From assembly GCA_022447525.1 (NCBI GenBank), contig JAKVBA010000004.1, forward strand, positions 1 through 64,000: a stretch of 64,000 nucleotides of DNA. Reading direction: 5' to 3'. The translations under genes and the position numbers were made by a program. The stretch is from Gammaproteobacteria bacterium (GTDB lineage: Bacteria > Pseudomonadota > Gammaproteobacteria > Arenicellales > Arenicellaceae). Numbering within the stretch: position 1 is the first letter of the stretch; each line of letters opens with the position of its first letter. The notes under the pieces are model-generated. The model saw nothing but the letters and a program-made list of their open reading frames with translations, was not told the origin of the DNA and ran no database searches. Positions 30,232 to 36,530 of this stretch are shown here, one piece after another.

Positions 30232-30428
30232 TAGGACTGTTACGTACCACTTATCTTCACTTTTTTTACGTTTAGCTAATGGGTCTCTTTGACGATTGAA
30301 TAAAGATCTTCGAATCCTTATTATATTTTAGCAATGGGTAGGTTTTTGGATAAATTAAAACACAAGTAAGCACGTTCTTTGGTCTAGACAGTCACAAGGA
30401 GGTGTGAAGTTGTTACCTGTTAAAAGGC

Positions 30429-33005
30429 TTGACCATGCCAAAGACTCAGACACGAACTGTTAAAGGTAAAGGATTTTTCTACAAAAACGTTTGGATCAGT
30501 CAATGTGCGGATGTACCAACCGCGACCATTAATAAAGGCTTTCATCCAATTGGCTTTTTAACAAAGCTAATAACGCTTGCTCTCTTTTTATTCCTCACTT
30601 TTGCTGCAAATAGCCTTTATGCACAGGTTTCTCTCGACCAGAGAAAAATGGCTGCCGTAATGGTGATTATTAAAACGTTGTTATTGGAAGAGGAAACAAA
30701 CATTTCTCTTGCTCTCAATGGTTATCAATCAACCCCTAGGTCAATATCCAATCTATTAAATATAGACTTAGATACCCAGTCTCAAGATGTCGAATTTTGC
30801 TTTGTTGTCTCAGCTAACATACCCCTACCCAATGAAGCTATAACACTTACAATCAATGGTGCACAGCAGCTTGGCGACAGCTCCCTAGTGACCGGAGAAA
30901 ATTGTTACTCAATACCACTAGCATCCCAACAGCAGGACAATACTGCTGTGTTTAATGTCCAATCTGGTGCCCTCTTAAATATATCTCATATGGGCATAGA
31001 TCCAAGTTCTCAGAGCTTTCTAGGGCTTACGAGTTTGACTCGAAGTTCTTGGGATGAAAGGGCAGTAAGGAAGGTATTGAAAGTATTTGCGTTCGGAGGA
31101 CACGCACGGTCAGAGCAAATAGCCTTATGGGCTAATATGAGGCCCAGGGATGCGATTGAGCAAATGCTAAACTTTGATCAGCACAATGCAAGGCTATCGC
31201 CGTTAACTGTTGGAGAGCGATATGCTGAACCAGCCACTTCGCATGGAACCATCACAGAATTCTACGATCATATCGGTTCACAGACTGCTGATACACCAAT
31301 TCCGTTGCCTGAACGAGAGTATCTTGGTACCGACGGTTATCGCTTCCCCTCTACATTCGGTCGAATGGTTGTAATGCGGGGCTTAAACCCGTTTAGACAG
31401 CGCATTGGTTTTTTTGAGACCAACTATCATATGGCCACTAATCGATCGGCAAACGTCGAACGACGCCAGATGCTCAGATATTACGACGATATAATGGCCG
31501 CACACGAGCAACGTGTTCCTTACCATGAGGTGATTGGAGTCGCTGCTAAATCCGCCGCAGTAGCAATGCAATATGGGCATCGCCGTAATATATGTAGAAA
31601 CTATTATATCAATAGCGAGGGCGAATGTAGGCTCGGTTGGCAGGCAGACCCAAATAGTTGCGAATTTGAGGGTAATGCTGATTTCGCAAGAGAAATTCAT
31701 CAACTCTTTTACGGCATCTTCGGCACCAACGATCCAACTCATGAGGATGTCACCATTGAAAACACTGCTCGTATGTTAACCGGAATGGATGTCGAATTTA
31801 TAGAGGATTTTGGATTTAGTACCGAGGTTGACTTCAATACATGTCAGCACCACCGGGATAGTTTTGGCCCTCTGAGGATTCTTGGTCAAGACATAAGCGG
31901 AATGGATGCGGCTGAAAAGATAGATCGTTTGATGCCTATTTCTATTCAGCATGAGGAAAGCTTGTTTAATTTACCAGTTTATATAATAAGCACCCTGGCC
32001 GATAATAACTTAACCGAAATTAAAAGAAGTCAGTTAAGAGCGGCGTGGGCAGCCTTAGGTGCGAATAAAGACTTCTTGACCTTCATACATGCTTATGCGA
32101 TCTCTGATTTGTTACACGACTTGGATCATGTAAAGTTTTTCAGTAGTTTTGAGCGAGCCTATTACCAAGCCAACAAATTTAATATAGACAATATCGAAGC
32201 CTATTTAAGTAACGATGGCAGAGCGGGGAGGGGTTTTGATGCTGTCATCGAGGGTGACAATGCGGGCGAAGTCTTTAGACCACTACATAATGTATTCGGG
32301 GGTCAAACGTCTCTAGAGGCCTCTGACTCAGCGTTGGTATTTGAACGGAACTATAATAGAAATGCTACCCGAGAGTCGTGGCAATTCAGAGCAGAGCTGC
32401 CATCTTATTGTCGCGATTGCGATCAAGGGTTACCTTGGTTTAAAGAGTGGTCGAAGGTCATACCGCAACAAAACGGTGGTTACTCTGCAGGTTATGTGGC
32501 CGAGTGGTTATGGATGCATGTCGTGGGTAATCTGGATAACTTTACGGAACTAGAGCGGAGTCAACTGGTGGCGATATTAGGAGCAGTTCGCCTTCCGCCG
32601 GTTGGAGGTGAGGAACCAAGTTGGAGATTGGATGATGAATATACCTATTTTGACCTAAACGGTTTACTTTGCATCAGGGAAGATCGAATAGATCAAGGTT
32701 TTGCGAATAATAGTTTAGCGGATTTAATGAGCTATGAAGGCTGGGACGAGTATTGTCGTCACAACAATGGGGCCTATTCGCAGATTGAAGTCGACGCATT
32801 TAATTTCACTTTTACTGGACAACAATTGCGTGATAGCGATGAGGATCCATTTCCATATTTTAGAAGTTTGATAGACGAGCTCGCTGCTGCCGAGGTAGGG
32901 CTAGATCAAACAGACGATATTCGACGTAGACGGGCAAATGAGCGTGTACAAGCGGCACTCGCTTTTATTTTTGCTACGCCATTCGTCTTTGCAGAAGGCC
33001 AGTGA
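30429..33005 (+). CDS. DUF1800 family protein
   Basis: NPFRQRIGFFETNYHMATNR..., NADFAREIHQLFYGIFG..., TARMLTGMDV resemble DUF1800 blocks; immediately upstream of a DUF1501 gene, the usual pairing. Confidence 0.8.
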   Translation: MTMPKTQTRTVKGKGFFYKNVWISQCADVPTATINKGFHPIGFLTKLITLALFLFLTFAANSLYAQVSLDQRKMAAVMVIIKTLLLEEETNISLALNGYQSTPRSISNLLNIDLDTQSQDVEFCFVVSANIPLPNEAITLTINGAQQLGDSSLVTGENCYSIPLASQQQDNTAVFNVQSGALLNISHMGIDPSSQSFLGLTSLTRSSWDERAVRKVLKVFAFGGHARSEQIALWANMRPRDAIEQMLNFDQHNARLSPLTVGERYAEPATSHGTITEFYDHIGSQTADTPIPLPEREYLGTDGYRFPSTFGRMVVMRGLNPFRQRIGFFETNYHMATNRSANVERRQMLRYYDDIMAAHEQRVPYHEVIGVAAKSAAVAMQYGHRRNICRNYYINSEGECRLGWQADPNSCEFEGNADFAREIHQLFYGIFGTNDPTHEDVTIENTARMLTGMDVEFIEDFGFSTEVDFNTCQHHRDSFGPLRILGQDISGMDAAEKIDRLMPISIQHEESLFNLPVYIISTLADNNLTEIKRSQLRAAWAALGANKDFLTFIHAYAISDLLHDLDHVKFFSSFERAYYQANKFNIDNIEAYLSNDGRAGRGFDAVIEGDNAGEVFRPLHNVFGGQTSLEASDSALVFERNYNRNATRESWQFRAELPSYCRDCDQGLPWFKEWSKVIPQQNGGYSAGYVAEWLWMHVVGNLDNFTELERSQLVAILGAVRLPPVGGEEPSWRLDDEYTYFDLNGLLCIREDRIDQGFANNSLADLMSYEGWDEYCRHNNGAYSQIEVDAFNFTFTGQQLRDSDEDPFPYFRSLIDELAAAEVGLDQTDDIRRRRANERVQAALAFIFATPFVFAEGQ

Positions 33006-33017
33006 TAGGAGAACTTC

Positions 33018-34661
33018 ATGAATAGACGTCAATTTTTACACACCGCGCTTTGTAGTTCTCTCGTTTACGGATTTGGTGGGATACCAGGAATAAGCAGAGA
33101 TTCTTTTGCGGCTTTTGAACCAGTTCAAGAAAAGTTACTGGTAAATCTATTCTTATCTGGCGGCCCAGATATCAGACACTTTATTGTTCCGGCGTACGAC
33201 AGTAACCCTGATAGCGTTGGAAATAAATACTGGAAACATCGATGGCGGGCTCATAATCTAAGCGAAGACCCTGCAACTTGGCAGCAGCGTTGGGAAACCG
33301 ACTTTTATCCTATTACGGTGGGTGGAGAGAACTGGAATAGCGGTTTAGCTAATATCGCACCGGATAATCGCAATAACGGCGTCACCTTTGGAATTTGGCG
33401 CCACGCTGGCTGGCTTATCGATATGTTTAGAGCCGGTAATGTCGCAATGGTCTGTAATGTTGCTGGTGGGCGCGATCGGGCACATGATTTGTCGAGTTTA
33501 AAGATGCACCAAGGTAACTTATTGTCCGGCATTAATGATGCGGATAGATCTGGTTGGGGAGGGCGCCTCGCTCGTTCAGCCAATGGTAACAGCATAGCGA
33601 TTACCAACTCTCCTCTTCCGTTCACCTTTGGGCCCGTTGGTACACCCGGCAACTACAACCCTGACGCGATAGATAACCAATTCTTAGTATCTGTGCAAAA
33701 CTCTCGAGAGATGGGGTTGAACGAAGCCAATCTGGATGATGATCAACTTTATAGACCTCAACACCGAATGGCACGCGCCTTAAAAAACTACTATCAAGGA
33801 TTACGGCAAGAAGAAATCGGAAACACCTATGAAAAATTTCGTGATCACGAACAAAAAGTGCGATTTTTTGGAGAGCTAATTAGAGATCGACTGTCAGATT
33901 TACCCGAGCCTGATTTGATCAGATTGCTCAGAACTACCCAAGATGAAAACAACCAAGATATTCTAATAAATGGGCAAATAGCAAACCCTGGCGGCGATGG
34001 TGAATCTCGCCGAATCTTGCACAGTGGATACAACTTTGGATCGCAGATTCGAAATCTATACGATGTACTAGCAGCTAACGATTTACTGAACGTAAGAACT
34101 GTATCAATGGAATACGGGGGGTGGGACAGTCACGGTGATCAAAGGCAAAATGAAGCAAATCCAGACATCAATGATCCAAATGTACAAAGAGGTATCGAGA
34201 ATGGATTTAAGGACATCTTTGGTGGTCAATTTGGAGAAAACCCCAATGATTCAAACGCCCTACACTCTGGTTTTTCATCGCTATGGGCAAGCTTGAACAC
34301 GGTAGATCGTCAAAAAATAGTGTTGACTATTTCTGGCGAATTTGGGCGTCAAATCCGTGACAATGGGGATGCAGGAACTGACCATGGGGTCGGCAATATC
34401 ATGTTCATTATAGGAGACGAGGTTAATGGCGGTATCTACGGAGAGCTTTTTCAAGACGCAGAAGTTGATAAATACGATAACCTAGCTTTACGCACTCCCG
34501 ATATAGAAGGCCTAACCGATTTAGACCCCTTATTTGCTCGAGTTTGCGATTGGGTACAACCATCCTCTGGAACTCAGGTATTCCCGCGGACAAACGGCAG
34601 TTACTCTGGCGTGACCCCGATCCAAGAGATATCAGGAATGTTCTCGAACCTTATGGTTTAG
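33018..34661 (+). CDS. DUF1501 family protein, probable Tat substrate
   Basis: MNRRQFLHTALCSS twin-arginine-like N-terminus; EYGGWDSHGDQ; TISGEFGRQIRDNGDAGTDHGVGNIMFIIGDEVNGGIYGE. Confidence 0.87.
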   Translation: MNRRQFLHTALCSSLVYGFGGIPGISRDSFAAFEPVQEKLLVNLFLSGGPDIRHFIVPAYDSNPDSVGNKYWKHRWRAHNLSEDPATWQQRWETDFYPITVGGENWNSGLANIAPDNRNNGVTFGIWRHAGWLIDMFRAGNVAMVCNVAGGRDRAHDLSSLKMHQGNLLSGINDADRSGWGGRLARSANGNSIAITNSPLPFTFGPVGTPGNYNPDAIDNQFLVSVQNSREMGLNEANLDDDQLYRPQHRMARALKNYYQGLRQEEIGNTYEKFRDHEQKVRFFGELIRDRLSDLPEPDLIRLLRTTQDENNQDILINGQIANPGGDGESRRILHSGYNFGSQIRNLYDVLAANDLLNVRTVSMEYGGWDSHGDQRQNEANPDINDPNVQRGIENGFKDIFGGQFGENPNDSNALHSGFSSLWASLNTVDRQKIVLTISGEFGRQIRDNGDAGTDHGVGNIMFIIGDEVNGGIYGELFQDAEVDKYDNLALRTPDIEGLTDLDPLFARVCDWVQPSSGTQVFPRTNGSYSGVTPIQEISGMFSNLMV

Positions 34662-34685
34662 TTTCTTAAGCTTGTTCTCAGTTAA

Positions 34686-36530
34686 ATGTTAAAGGTGGTA
34701 ATAAGATTTGTGGTTTGTCTGCTTTGCATCTTCATCGGTGTATTGGGTTCAGCGCAAGCACGAAATGAATATCTGGGTTGGTGGGCAGAGGTCTATACAA
34801 GTTCAAACGCTAATCAGAGTGCTTGTCAACTTTGTCACGAGCGCACTGGTGGCGGCAACGGCTGGAATAAGTATGGTTGGTCATTGCGTAGTGCGTTAAA
34901 CATGCAGAGTGCACCGGAGTCGATTTTAAAAGGCGCGCTTGATGACGTACAAAATGTAGACGACGGCAACGGTTCTAGCTATTTAATGCAAATAAACAAT
35001 GATGCACAACCTGGATGGTTTGTAGGGAATAACAATAGAATCCGCTCGGTGGGAATAGATGATAATGGGCAACCGATAGCTATAGAGAAGTTTATCGACG
35101 CTGGTGATGTACAACCCTGTGGTATTTTTATTGATCCACCGAATTCATCGGATGCCCAAGAAATTAAGAGGGTACAAACATGCTCAACTGTTAATCCAAT
35201 AGACTCAACTATCGACAAAGCTGGACCCAAAGTACGATTAGATGTTGTCGCTGGCGGGTTTACAGCGCCTTTATCGGCCGTATCGGCGCCCGGACAGAGC
35301 AATATTATATATGTTGTAGAACAAGGTGGCTTGATCTGGCGCGTCGATCTGCAAAACAATTCAAGAAGAGTTTTTTTAGACTTTTCAGGAGAGTTAGTCA
35401 CTAACTTTGGGCAGCTCTCTGGTGGCTACGATGAGCGCGGTTTGTTGGGTTTCGCTTTTCATCCTAACTTTGCCAATAACAACCTAATTTACACCTATAT
35501 ATCGACTAATTTTGATGCTAGTCAGATTGACTTCAGTACACTAGGCATAGGAGAAACTGCTGATCACATGAGTGAAGTTGCCGAATGGGTGGTGACCAAT
35601 CCGGCGGATGTGAGTAGTTCAGCGGGTAGTAAACGCAGGCTGTTGGCGGTGGCTCAACCGCAGTCTAATCATAACGGCGGTATGTTAGCTTTTGGACCCG
35701 AGGGATATCTGTACATCGCGTTAGGCGATGGAGGTGCAAGTAACGATGCCGGAGATGGGCATGGTGTGGAAGGTAACGCTAGAGACAATACCAATATACT
35801 TGGGTCAATATTGCGAATAGATATAGATCATGCCACGCCAGCTAATGGACGATACGCTGTGCCGGTAGACAACCCTTTTGTCGGTAGTCTAGGCGCAGAC
35901 GAGATATATGTTTATGGATTAAGGAACCCCTATCGCTTTAGTATAGAAGGCACCGGTGCGCAAGCCAGATTGTATATTGGGGATGTTGGTCAGGACGCGA
36001 TTGAAGAGCTAAATCGAATACCACTTGACCAAGGCGGAGCTAATTTTGGTTGGAATTATAAAGAGGGTAGCTTTTTCTTTTCTGTTATTGGCGGTTCAAG
36101 CTTCGTCAGTCCAACACCACCATCCGGTGTTGTTATTCCTGCATTAATAGATCCAGTTACTGAATATGATCATAATGAGGGGATCTCAATAATAGCTGGC
36201 TATAATTATGATGGTAATGATATTCCTGAGCTCTCGGGCAGCTATATTTTTGGCGATTGGGGTCGTAGTTTTGTAAATCCTGATGGCCGTTTGTTTTTTC
36301 TCGACCCAAGCGACCAAATAAGAGAATTGGATTTAGTTAATCCGCTGAATATTCATGTCACCGGTTTTGGTCGCGACTCGCAAGGAGAAGTTTACGTGGT
36401 GGGATCGACCGGTTTTAGCGTCAACTCTCAAGGTCAAGGATCTTTATTGAAGCTAGCACCGGTAACGGATGATGAAATATGCACGCCCATCAGAGCAAAA
36501 AATGGAAAGGTTGCTCTAATTTGTCTATGA
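34686..36530 (+). CDS. PQQ-dependent-type sugar (Asd/GDH-like) dehydrogenase with N-terminal CxxCH motif
   Basis: Signal peptide; SACQLCHERTGGGNGWNKYG; SNIIYVVEQGGLIWRVDLQ...ERGLLGFAFHPNF; NHNGGMLAFGPEGYLYIALGDGG; YVYGLRNPYRFSIE; YIGDVGQDAIEELNR. Confidence 0.88.
   Translation: MLKVVIRFVVCLLCIFIGVLGSAQARNEYLGWWAEVYTSSNANQSACQLCHERTGGGNGWNKYGWSLRSALNMQSAPESILKGALDDVQNVDDGNGSSYLMQINNDAQPGWFVGNNNRIRSVGIDDNGQPIAIEKFIDAGDVQPCGIFIDPPNSSDAQEIKRVQTCSTVNPIDSTIDKAGPKVRLDVVAGGFTAPLSAVSAPGQSNIIYVVEQGGLIWRVDLQNNSRRVFLDFSGELVTNFGQLSGGYDERGLLGFAFHPNFANNNLIYTYISTNFDASQIDFSTLGIGETADHMSEVAEWVVTNPADVSSSAGSKRRLLAVAQPQSNHNGGMLAFGPEGYLYIALGDGGASNDAGDGHGVEGNARDNTNILGSILRIDIDHATPANGRYAVPVDNPFVGSLGADEIYVYGLRNPYRFSIEGTGAQARLYIGDVGQDAIEELNRIPLDQGGANFGWNYKEGSFFFSVIGGSSFVSPTPPSGVVIPALIDPVTEYDHNEGISIIAGYNYDGNDIPELSGSYIFGDWGRSFVNPDGRLFFLDPSDQIRELDLVNPLNIHVTGFGRDSQGEVYVVGSTGFSVNSQGQGSLLKLAPVTDDEICTPIRAKNGKVALICL

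Follow-up and report, generated by a model that had tools for sequence, protein, structure and literature searches.

Three genes on the + strand of contig JAKVBA010000004.1, analysed here as a window of 64,000 nt from a gammaproteobacterium of the family Arenicellaceae, encode an exported DUF1800-like protein, a DUF1501 protein with a twin-arginine translocation (Tat) signal, and a protein that joins a predicted haem module to a GSDH beta-propeller and a short C-terminal tail. This trio is a real, conserved and lineage-specific extension of the widespread, uncharacterised DUF1800-DUF1501 pair. The pair itself is already known in the literature. The novel points are the homology between DUF1800 and PSCyt2/PSD1 (DUF1549/DUF1553), as judged by profile comparison, and the C-terminal tail. 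All coordinates of open reading frames (ORFs) are positions in the window.

The ORFs were found tightly spaced on one strand, as the original prediction had described, with 12 nt between the DUF1800 and DUF1501 genes and 24 nt between the DUF1501 and haem/GSDH genes. The Tat signal on DUF1501 and the CQLCH motif in the third protein, both pointed out beforehand, were recovered and are invariant in homologs. A search of 18 genus genomes, that of the window included, detected the DUF1800 protein in 17; it was also found in a further family of the order. The order DUF1800 > DUF1501 > haem/GSDH was kept in all Arenicella contigs of sufficient length, and gaps between the first two genes ranged from -23 to +12 nt across trio loci. 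Most copies lie between pepN and SDR-cysI; in the window, pepN is upstream of the trio and a short-chain dehydrogenase (SDR) gene is downstream. Copies outside this site were found at loci L027, L031, L034, L038 and L039. Two trio copies were present at L026, a tandem duplicate and a distant third copy in genome G005, and two trios in a row at L039 (genome G002), in one of which DUF1800 is of the short classical type and DUF1501 is classical too. Pairwise identities vary in concert among the three proteins (r 0.92, 0.76 and 0.82; 14 loci, no species-tree control; 0 of 5000 permutations). The order kept at non-syntenic loci and in tandem duplicates, the tight gaps and the co-varying identities speak for the trio as one unit. 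The SDR was dropped as a member of this unit because none was seen beside the trio at non-syntenic loci. The earlier proposal of an exported, co-inherited three-gene set with a haem-type motif is supported by this conservation across Arenicella. At L084:5638-13708, two DUF1800-DUF1501 pairs that belong to different subfamilies converge, and one of them has a haem-tail protein without propeller.

Outside the genus, complete trios were recovered from two metagenome-assembled genomes (L082 and L083). None of the remaining DUF1800-DUF1501 relatives that were recovered, from Myxococcota, Campylobacterota, Saccharospirillaceae and other groups, had such a third gene. The pair was then surveyed in 143 evenly drawn Gammaproteobacteria genomes, and pair coordinates were compared by hand. 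DUF1800 gave 26 matches in 19 of the 143 genomes, and 25 of the 26 are followed closely by DUF1501 in the same orientation. GSDH was found in 81/143 genomes and lay within 5 kb of the pair only in the window's genome (G000); elsewhere the shortest distance, in G140, was about 8 kb, with GSDH on the opposite strand. This makes the pair a general one and its third gene a feature of the lineage. The linkage that had been suggested thus extends beyond this genome to Arenicella and its near relatives, but not to the rest of the class.

The DUF1800 protein of the window scored 23.5 bits with PF08811, below the curated cut-off of 26.1, and a PF08811 search of the window's own genome gave no match to it because its subfamily is too divergent. 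Profile-profile comparison (hhalign) of this subfamily with 30 classical DUF1800 proteins gave 95.3-96.9% (E 2e-8 to 2e-10; 317-324 columns), and the reversed control gave 0.1%. The membership in DUF1800 that had been predicted is confirmed by this comparison of profiles. Classical DUF1800 (loci L154-L179) was then compared with Verrucomicrobia PSCyt2/PSD1 (loci L131-L145), which gave 94.7% (E 5.6e-8; 260 columns), with unrelated and reversed controls below 1%. The result depends on alignment depth, since 10 classical sequences against PSCyt2 gave 1.8% and 30 gave 94.7%. Compared directly with PSCyt2, the window subfamily gave a non-significant 0.1%; it is thus classical DUF1800 that connects the two. 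By profile, DUF1800 is homologous to PSCyt2/PSD1 and forms one superfamily with it; no statement of this homology was found in the literature available.

A DUF1501 gene stands directly after PSCyt2 in 14 of the 15 Verrucomicrobia loci. In the PSCyt1/PSCyt2/PSD1 sets (PF07635, PF07583, PF07587) of Planctomycetes-Verrucomicrobia-Chlamydiae (PVC) bacteria, a core homologous to DUF1800 as a whole, but with no significant direct match to the window subfamily, also has DUF1501 directly downstream, and the trio is a likely counterpart of this uncharacterised cytochrome/DUF1501 set. Cytochrome domains (PMC5615132, PMC2754498) and carbohydrate-binding modules (CBMs) are frequent additions to PSCyt2/PSD1 proteins, which lie near sulfatases (PMC5615132), and Rhodopirellula baltica has 41 copies of PSCyt2/PSD1 domains (PMC2754498). 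According to the literature, a CxxCH module is part of many PVC PSCyt sets, whereas in the trio a protein of its own, which also has a propeller and a tail, carries the haem module. CxxCH was present in none of the 15 Verrucomicrobia PSCyt2 proteins examined, so haem is universal in neither branch, and the haem module would have joined the set separately in the Arenicella lineage. Known DUF1800-DUF1501 pairs (PF08811-PF07394; PMC5122149) share with the trio the families, their order and the Tat signal on DUF1501; the trio differs by a long, divergent DUF1800 with a beta-sandwich domain and by the haem-motif gene that follows. Such pairs accompany chitin synthases in plant-associated bacteria (PMC5122149), whereas no chitin synthase was seen among the trio neighbours. 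The set had been put forward as the best candidate for an undescribed system. This was not upheld, as the pair is widespread, has been reported before and belongs to the same superfamily as the PSCyt2/PSD1-DUF1501 sets. The statement that the pair is without established function held: none was found for DUF1800, DUF1501, PSCyt2 or PSD1 in the searchable literature. These families are abundant in environmental bacteria. Taken as one superfamily with DUF1501 as constant partner, DUF1800 and PSCyt2/PSD1 would reduce several unknowns to a single question, testable in simpler Gammaproteobacteria.

The DUF1501 protein scored 41.5 bits with PF07394 (cut-off 27). Residues R3, R4 and F6 of its Tat motif NRRQFL (33018 on) are invariant in 18 aligned homologs, as are D51, H54, H156, D370, H372, E441, D455 and H456. 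This set resembles that of the alkaline-phosphatase superfamily, and D51, H156, D370, H372, D455 and H456 are candidate ligands. A PDB sequence search with the DUF1501 profile gave no significant match. The DUF1800 protein was modelled with AlphaFold2 (pTM 0.75). Foldseek matches of this model in the PDB were mostly carbohydrate- or collagen-binding beta-sandwiches, with E > 0.007 for all top matches, and the modelled beta-sandwich domain is weakly similar to CBMs and prepeptidase C-terminal domains.

In 15 homologs of the third protein, three conserved regions were distinguished: haem module, propeller and C-terminal tail. C47-Q-x-C-H51 is invariant in all homologs aligned (15-homolog and 12-homolog alignments), and CQLCH is the sole CxxCH among window reading frames open over ≥100 codons. 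Most of the 12 homologs have an acidic DxDxxG-like loop within the module. The third protein is a predicted c-type haem carrier, to which haem would be attached covalently. Two proteins of 175 and 165 aa (L080 and L084) have the haem module and tail without the propeller and adjoin DUF1800 and DUF1501. Because both features are kept in them, haem module and tail form the constant third partner; the propeller is a dispensable part. Other Gammaproteobacteria have the module at the N-terminus of PKD-repeat proteins and in proteins with 10 and 14 CxxCH, and in G218 and G137 it accompanies genuine cytochrome c repeats. Its occurrence in PKD and multihaem proteins supports an origin from redox proteins. 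A PDB search with the module profile gave no significant match. The proteins with 10 and 14 CxxCH are at L219 and L221, a 24-CxxCH protein adjoins in L219, and both are possible extracellular electron-transfer loci.

The last 16 residues of the third protein follow the consensus C-[FVLIT]-P-[IV]-x9-[IV]-C-L-stop, and this tail is invariant in the 15 homologs. AlphaFold2 placed strands at 599-603 and 609-613 with moderate confidence, and such a hairpin would allow a C599-C613 disulfide. A DNA pattern scan of 13 genus genomes found 3-8 copies of the tail per genome; the reversed control there gave 0. A 22-residue tail profile gave 3-15 matches, some counts including weak ones, in 17/18 genus genomes and in G028, and only E > 0.03 elsewhere in the order. 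In 271 further genomes of the class the pattern had 6 matches, about the reversed control number. Some class-wide matches were dismissed since the reversed control yielded an equal number. No tail match was found in G014 (a 99% complete genus genome), in which the sole trio GSDH is truncated at the end of a contig; this genome may have a single tail protein. The tail is borne by 56 distinct ORFs. Many tail proteins are exported and unrelated to one another, among them proteases of the matrixin and reprolysin families with TSP3 repeats, a subtilase and propellers of DUF5122. No NCBIfam model matches the tail.

On the simplest reading the tail is probably a new, dedicated C-terminal sorting signal. 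GlyGly-CTERM (PMC3237569), MYXO-CTERM (PMC11980579), PEP-CTERM and the C-terminal domains of the type IX secretion system are likewise short C-terminal signatures found on unrelated secreted proteins of one lineage, and MYXO-CTERM also has an invariant Cys (PMC11980579). Unlike GlyGly-, MYXO- and PEP-CTERM, the Arenicella tail has no hydrophobic helix and no basic cluster and ends in -CL-stop; it also differs by its two Cys, which are 14 residues apart on the predicted hairpin. A more specific proposal was given an even chance: the tail would be a disulfide-closed beta-hairpin without transmembrane helix, particular to Arenicella and close relatives and read by a dedicated machine, which would deliver haem proteins, proteases and propellers to the cell surface. 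Of its clients the trio would be the most constant, and the trio would also be a counterpart in Gammaproteobacteria of the PVC cytochrome/DUF1501 sets. Through the tail, the sorting of surface proteins in Arenicella becomes open to study.

The preferred reading, held tentatively and at somewhat less than an even chance, is that the three genes form one exported functional unit for polymer processing, in which a tail-placed haem-module protein with an optional propeller is added to the DUF1800/DUF1501 core pair. The core pair would consist of a DUF1800 protein, which has a Sec-type signal, a beta-sandwich and a PSCyt2/PSD1-homologous helical core, and of the alkaline-phosphatase-like DUF1501 protein, exported via Tat; the trio proteins may form a complex. 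The DUF1800 protein would act through its beta-sandwich domain as binder or scaffold of a surface or extracellular polymer, on which DUF1501 would act as a metal-dependent hydrolase or transferase. The haem module could provide a redox step, sensing or a docking subunit, the disulfide-hairpin tail would bring the third protein to its destination, most likely the outer surface, and the propeller, which resembles hedgehog-interacting protein (HHIP), may be an optional adaptor or glycan-binding part. The polymer is suggested by the chitin-synthase operons (PMC5122149) and by PSCyt proteins with CBMs beside sulfatases (PMC5615132), and surface-polymer processing is the best guess for the function. 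Several points weigh against this reading. The CBM likeness of the beta-sandwich is weak at these Foldseek E values, no solved relative of DUF1800 was found by sequence (PDB profile search) or by fold (Foldseek), and DUF1800 has no known enzyme activity, structure or phenotype. Besides H51, no Met, His or Lys that could be the sixth haem ligand is conserved in the haem module, which is therefore a putative haem binder. Shared descent alone could give the co-variation of identities. A haem-GSDH-tail protein occurs alone, with no DUF1800 or DUF1501 nearby, at L129:4349-6088, and at L089 a relative has the DUF1800/DUF1501 pair and no haem gene.

The original prediction saw in the third protein a haem-bearing PQQ (pyrroloquinoline quinone) dehydrogenase. 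In this explanation, electrons from sugar would pass via haem to a periplasmic or extracellular acceptor, and DUF1800/DUF1501 would prepare the sugar substrate. The protein is indeed a GSDH by Pfam (PF07995, 83.2 bits, cut-off 25), with CxxCH at the N-terminus. It belongs to the beta-propeller superfamily of soluble glucose dehydrogenase (sGDH) and E. coli YliI/Asd and retains in its homologs the GDVGQ..E loop of GSDH, the catalytic His (H329, 14/15) and the Arg-Asn pair (R413, 15/15; N414, 14/15). However, the closest match of the propeller in sequence and fold is non-enzymatic HHIP (phmmer, 1.5e-28, sGDH 3e-10; Foldseek, 6e-26, sGDH 5e-21, Asd 8e-18; AlphaFold2 model pTM 0.69); HHIP is eukaryotic and has neither haem module nor Arg-Asn pair. 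In sGDH, the PQQ carboxylates are held by the basic residues K377, R406 and R408, and K and R are present in the matching region of YliI. At the YliI-aligned positions, where the alignment is loose, no Lys or Arg is conserved in the third protein. PqqC was absent in 13/13 genus genomes and present in G021, from another family of the same order. A PQQ dehydrogenase would therefore need scavenged PQQ and was rated unlikely. Compared with sGDH and YliI/Asd, the trio protein adds a haem module and tail and lacks a conserved PQQ clamp, in a genus without the PQQ synthesis gene. The loss of the propeller in L080 and L084, where haem module and tail stay, and a separate canonical GSDH elsewhere in the window's genome (G000:C112) also count against this explanation. 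It was judged quite improbable as a whole, and the dehydrogenase reading was probably wrong in emphasis.

Electron transfer could also be the function of the haem module itself, the trio being an accessory of respiration or extracellular electron transfer, bound to vesicles or to the surface, in which DUF1800/DUF1501 assemble a cytochrome complex, perhaps like the PVC PSCyt1 proteins. The multihaem proteins of L219 and L221 and the union of cytochrome domains with PSCyt2/PSD1 in PVC bacteria (PMC5615132, PMC2754498) speak for it. It is nevertheless unlikely, given that most DUF1800-DUF1501 pairs have no nearby haem partner, that the 15 Verrucomicrobia PSCyt2 proteins are free of CxxCH and that the third protein has a single CxxCH with no conserved distal ligand. 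A third gene that had stayed beside the pair by chance and descent, as a neutral passenger, would fit the single pepN ... SDR-cysI neighbourhood of most copies and the missing haem/GSDH link outside the lineage. This explanation is very improbable, as the order persists at unrelated sites, in copies duplicated in tandem, with a classical pair (L039, L084) and after propeller loss. Finally, DUF1800/DUF1501 might be maturation or anchoring machinery for tail proteins, with the third protein merely the nearest client. Every trio haem protein bears the tail, and the DUF1501 superfamily includes transferases which could attach a surface group. Yet G008 has 5-7 tail proteins and no DUF1800 match, G028 has tails and no match to the window DUF1800, and the pair is widespread in tail-less genomes; this explanation was given hardly any probability.

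Table 1. Features of the trio locus, with positions in the window
Feature	Position	Strand	Basis
DUF1800-like exported protein, 858 aa, hydrophobic signal segment at about residues 48-65	30429..33005	+	ORF; PF08811, 23.5 bits; hhalign; AlphaFold2
N-terminal beta-sandwich domain of DUF1800 protein, about residues 90-205	30696..31043	+	DSSP of AlphaFold2 model; Foldseek
DUF1800 helical core, residues 204-587, with FAREI...ARMLTG motifs	31038..32189	+	hhalign, 324 columns
AGGAG ribosome-binding site, 6 nt 5' of DUF1501 ATG	33007..33011	+	Sequence
DUF1501 protein, 547 aa, twin-arginine signal MNRRQFL	33018..34661	+	PF07394; invariant columns, 18 homologs
Haem-module/GSDH-propeller/C-terminal-tail protein, 614 aa	34686..36530	+	PF07995; alignment; AlphaFold2
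Predicted haem module, about residues 27-125, C-Q-x-C-H-x4-G-x3-W-N-x-Y-G ... PGW	34764..35060	+	Alignment, 12 homologs, 2 of them propeller-less
CQLCH haem-attachment motif (predicted)	34824..34838	+	Sequence; invariant in aligned homologs
GSDH beta-propeller, HHIP-like, residues 188-592	35247..36461	+	phmmer; Foldseek
C-terminal tail CTPIRAKNGKVALICL-stop, predicted two-strand hairpin, two invariant Cys	36480..36530	+	15 homologs; AlphaFold2

The start of the DUF1800 gene is annotated at the TTG at 30429, with an alternative ATG at 30435, and this start call is uncertain. A strong AGGAGG at about 30398 is too distant from both. It is well spaced for a short ORF of 17 codons, which begins with TTG at 30410, ends at 30463 and overlaps the start of the DUF1800 gene. 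This ORF is possibly a leader peptide, or else the DUF1800 start was wrongly called. An ORF of 1110 aa that joins DUF1800 to DUF1501 (L101:6117-9449) was considered as a natural fusion and rejected; the C-terminus of DUF1800 is missing and an internal Tat start is present, so that a frameshift is most likely. At L035:1969-3921 (G010), the trio is adjoined by a 650-aa exported protein that appeared beta-helix-like by eye.

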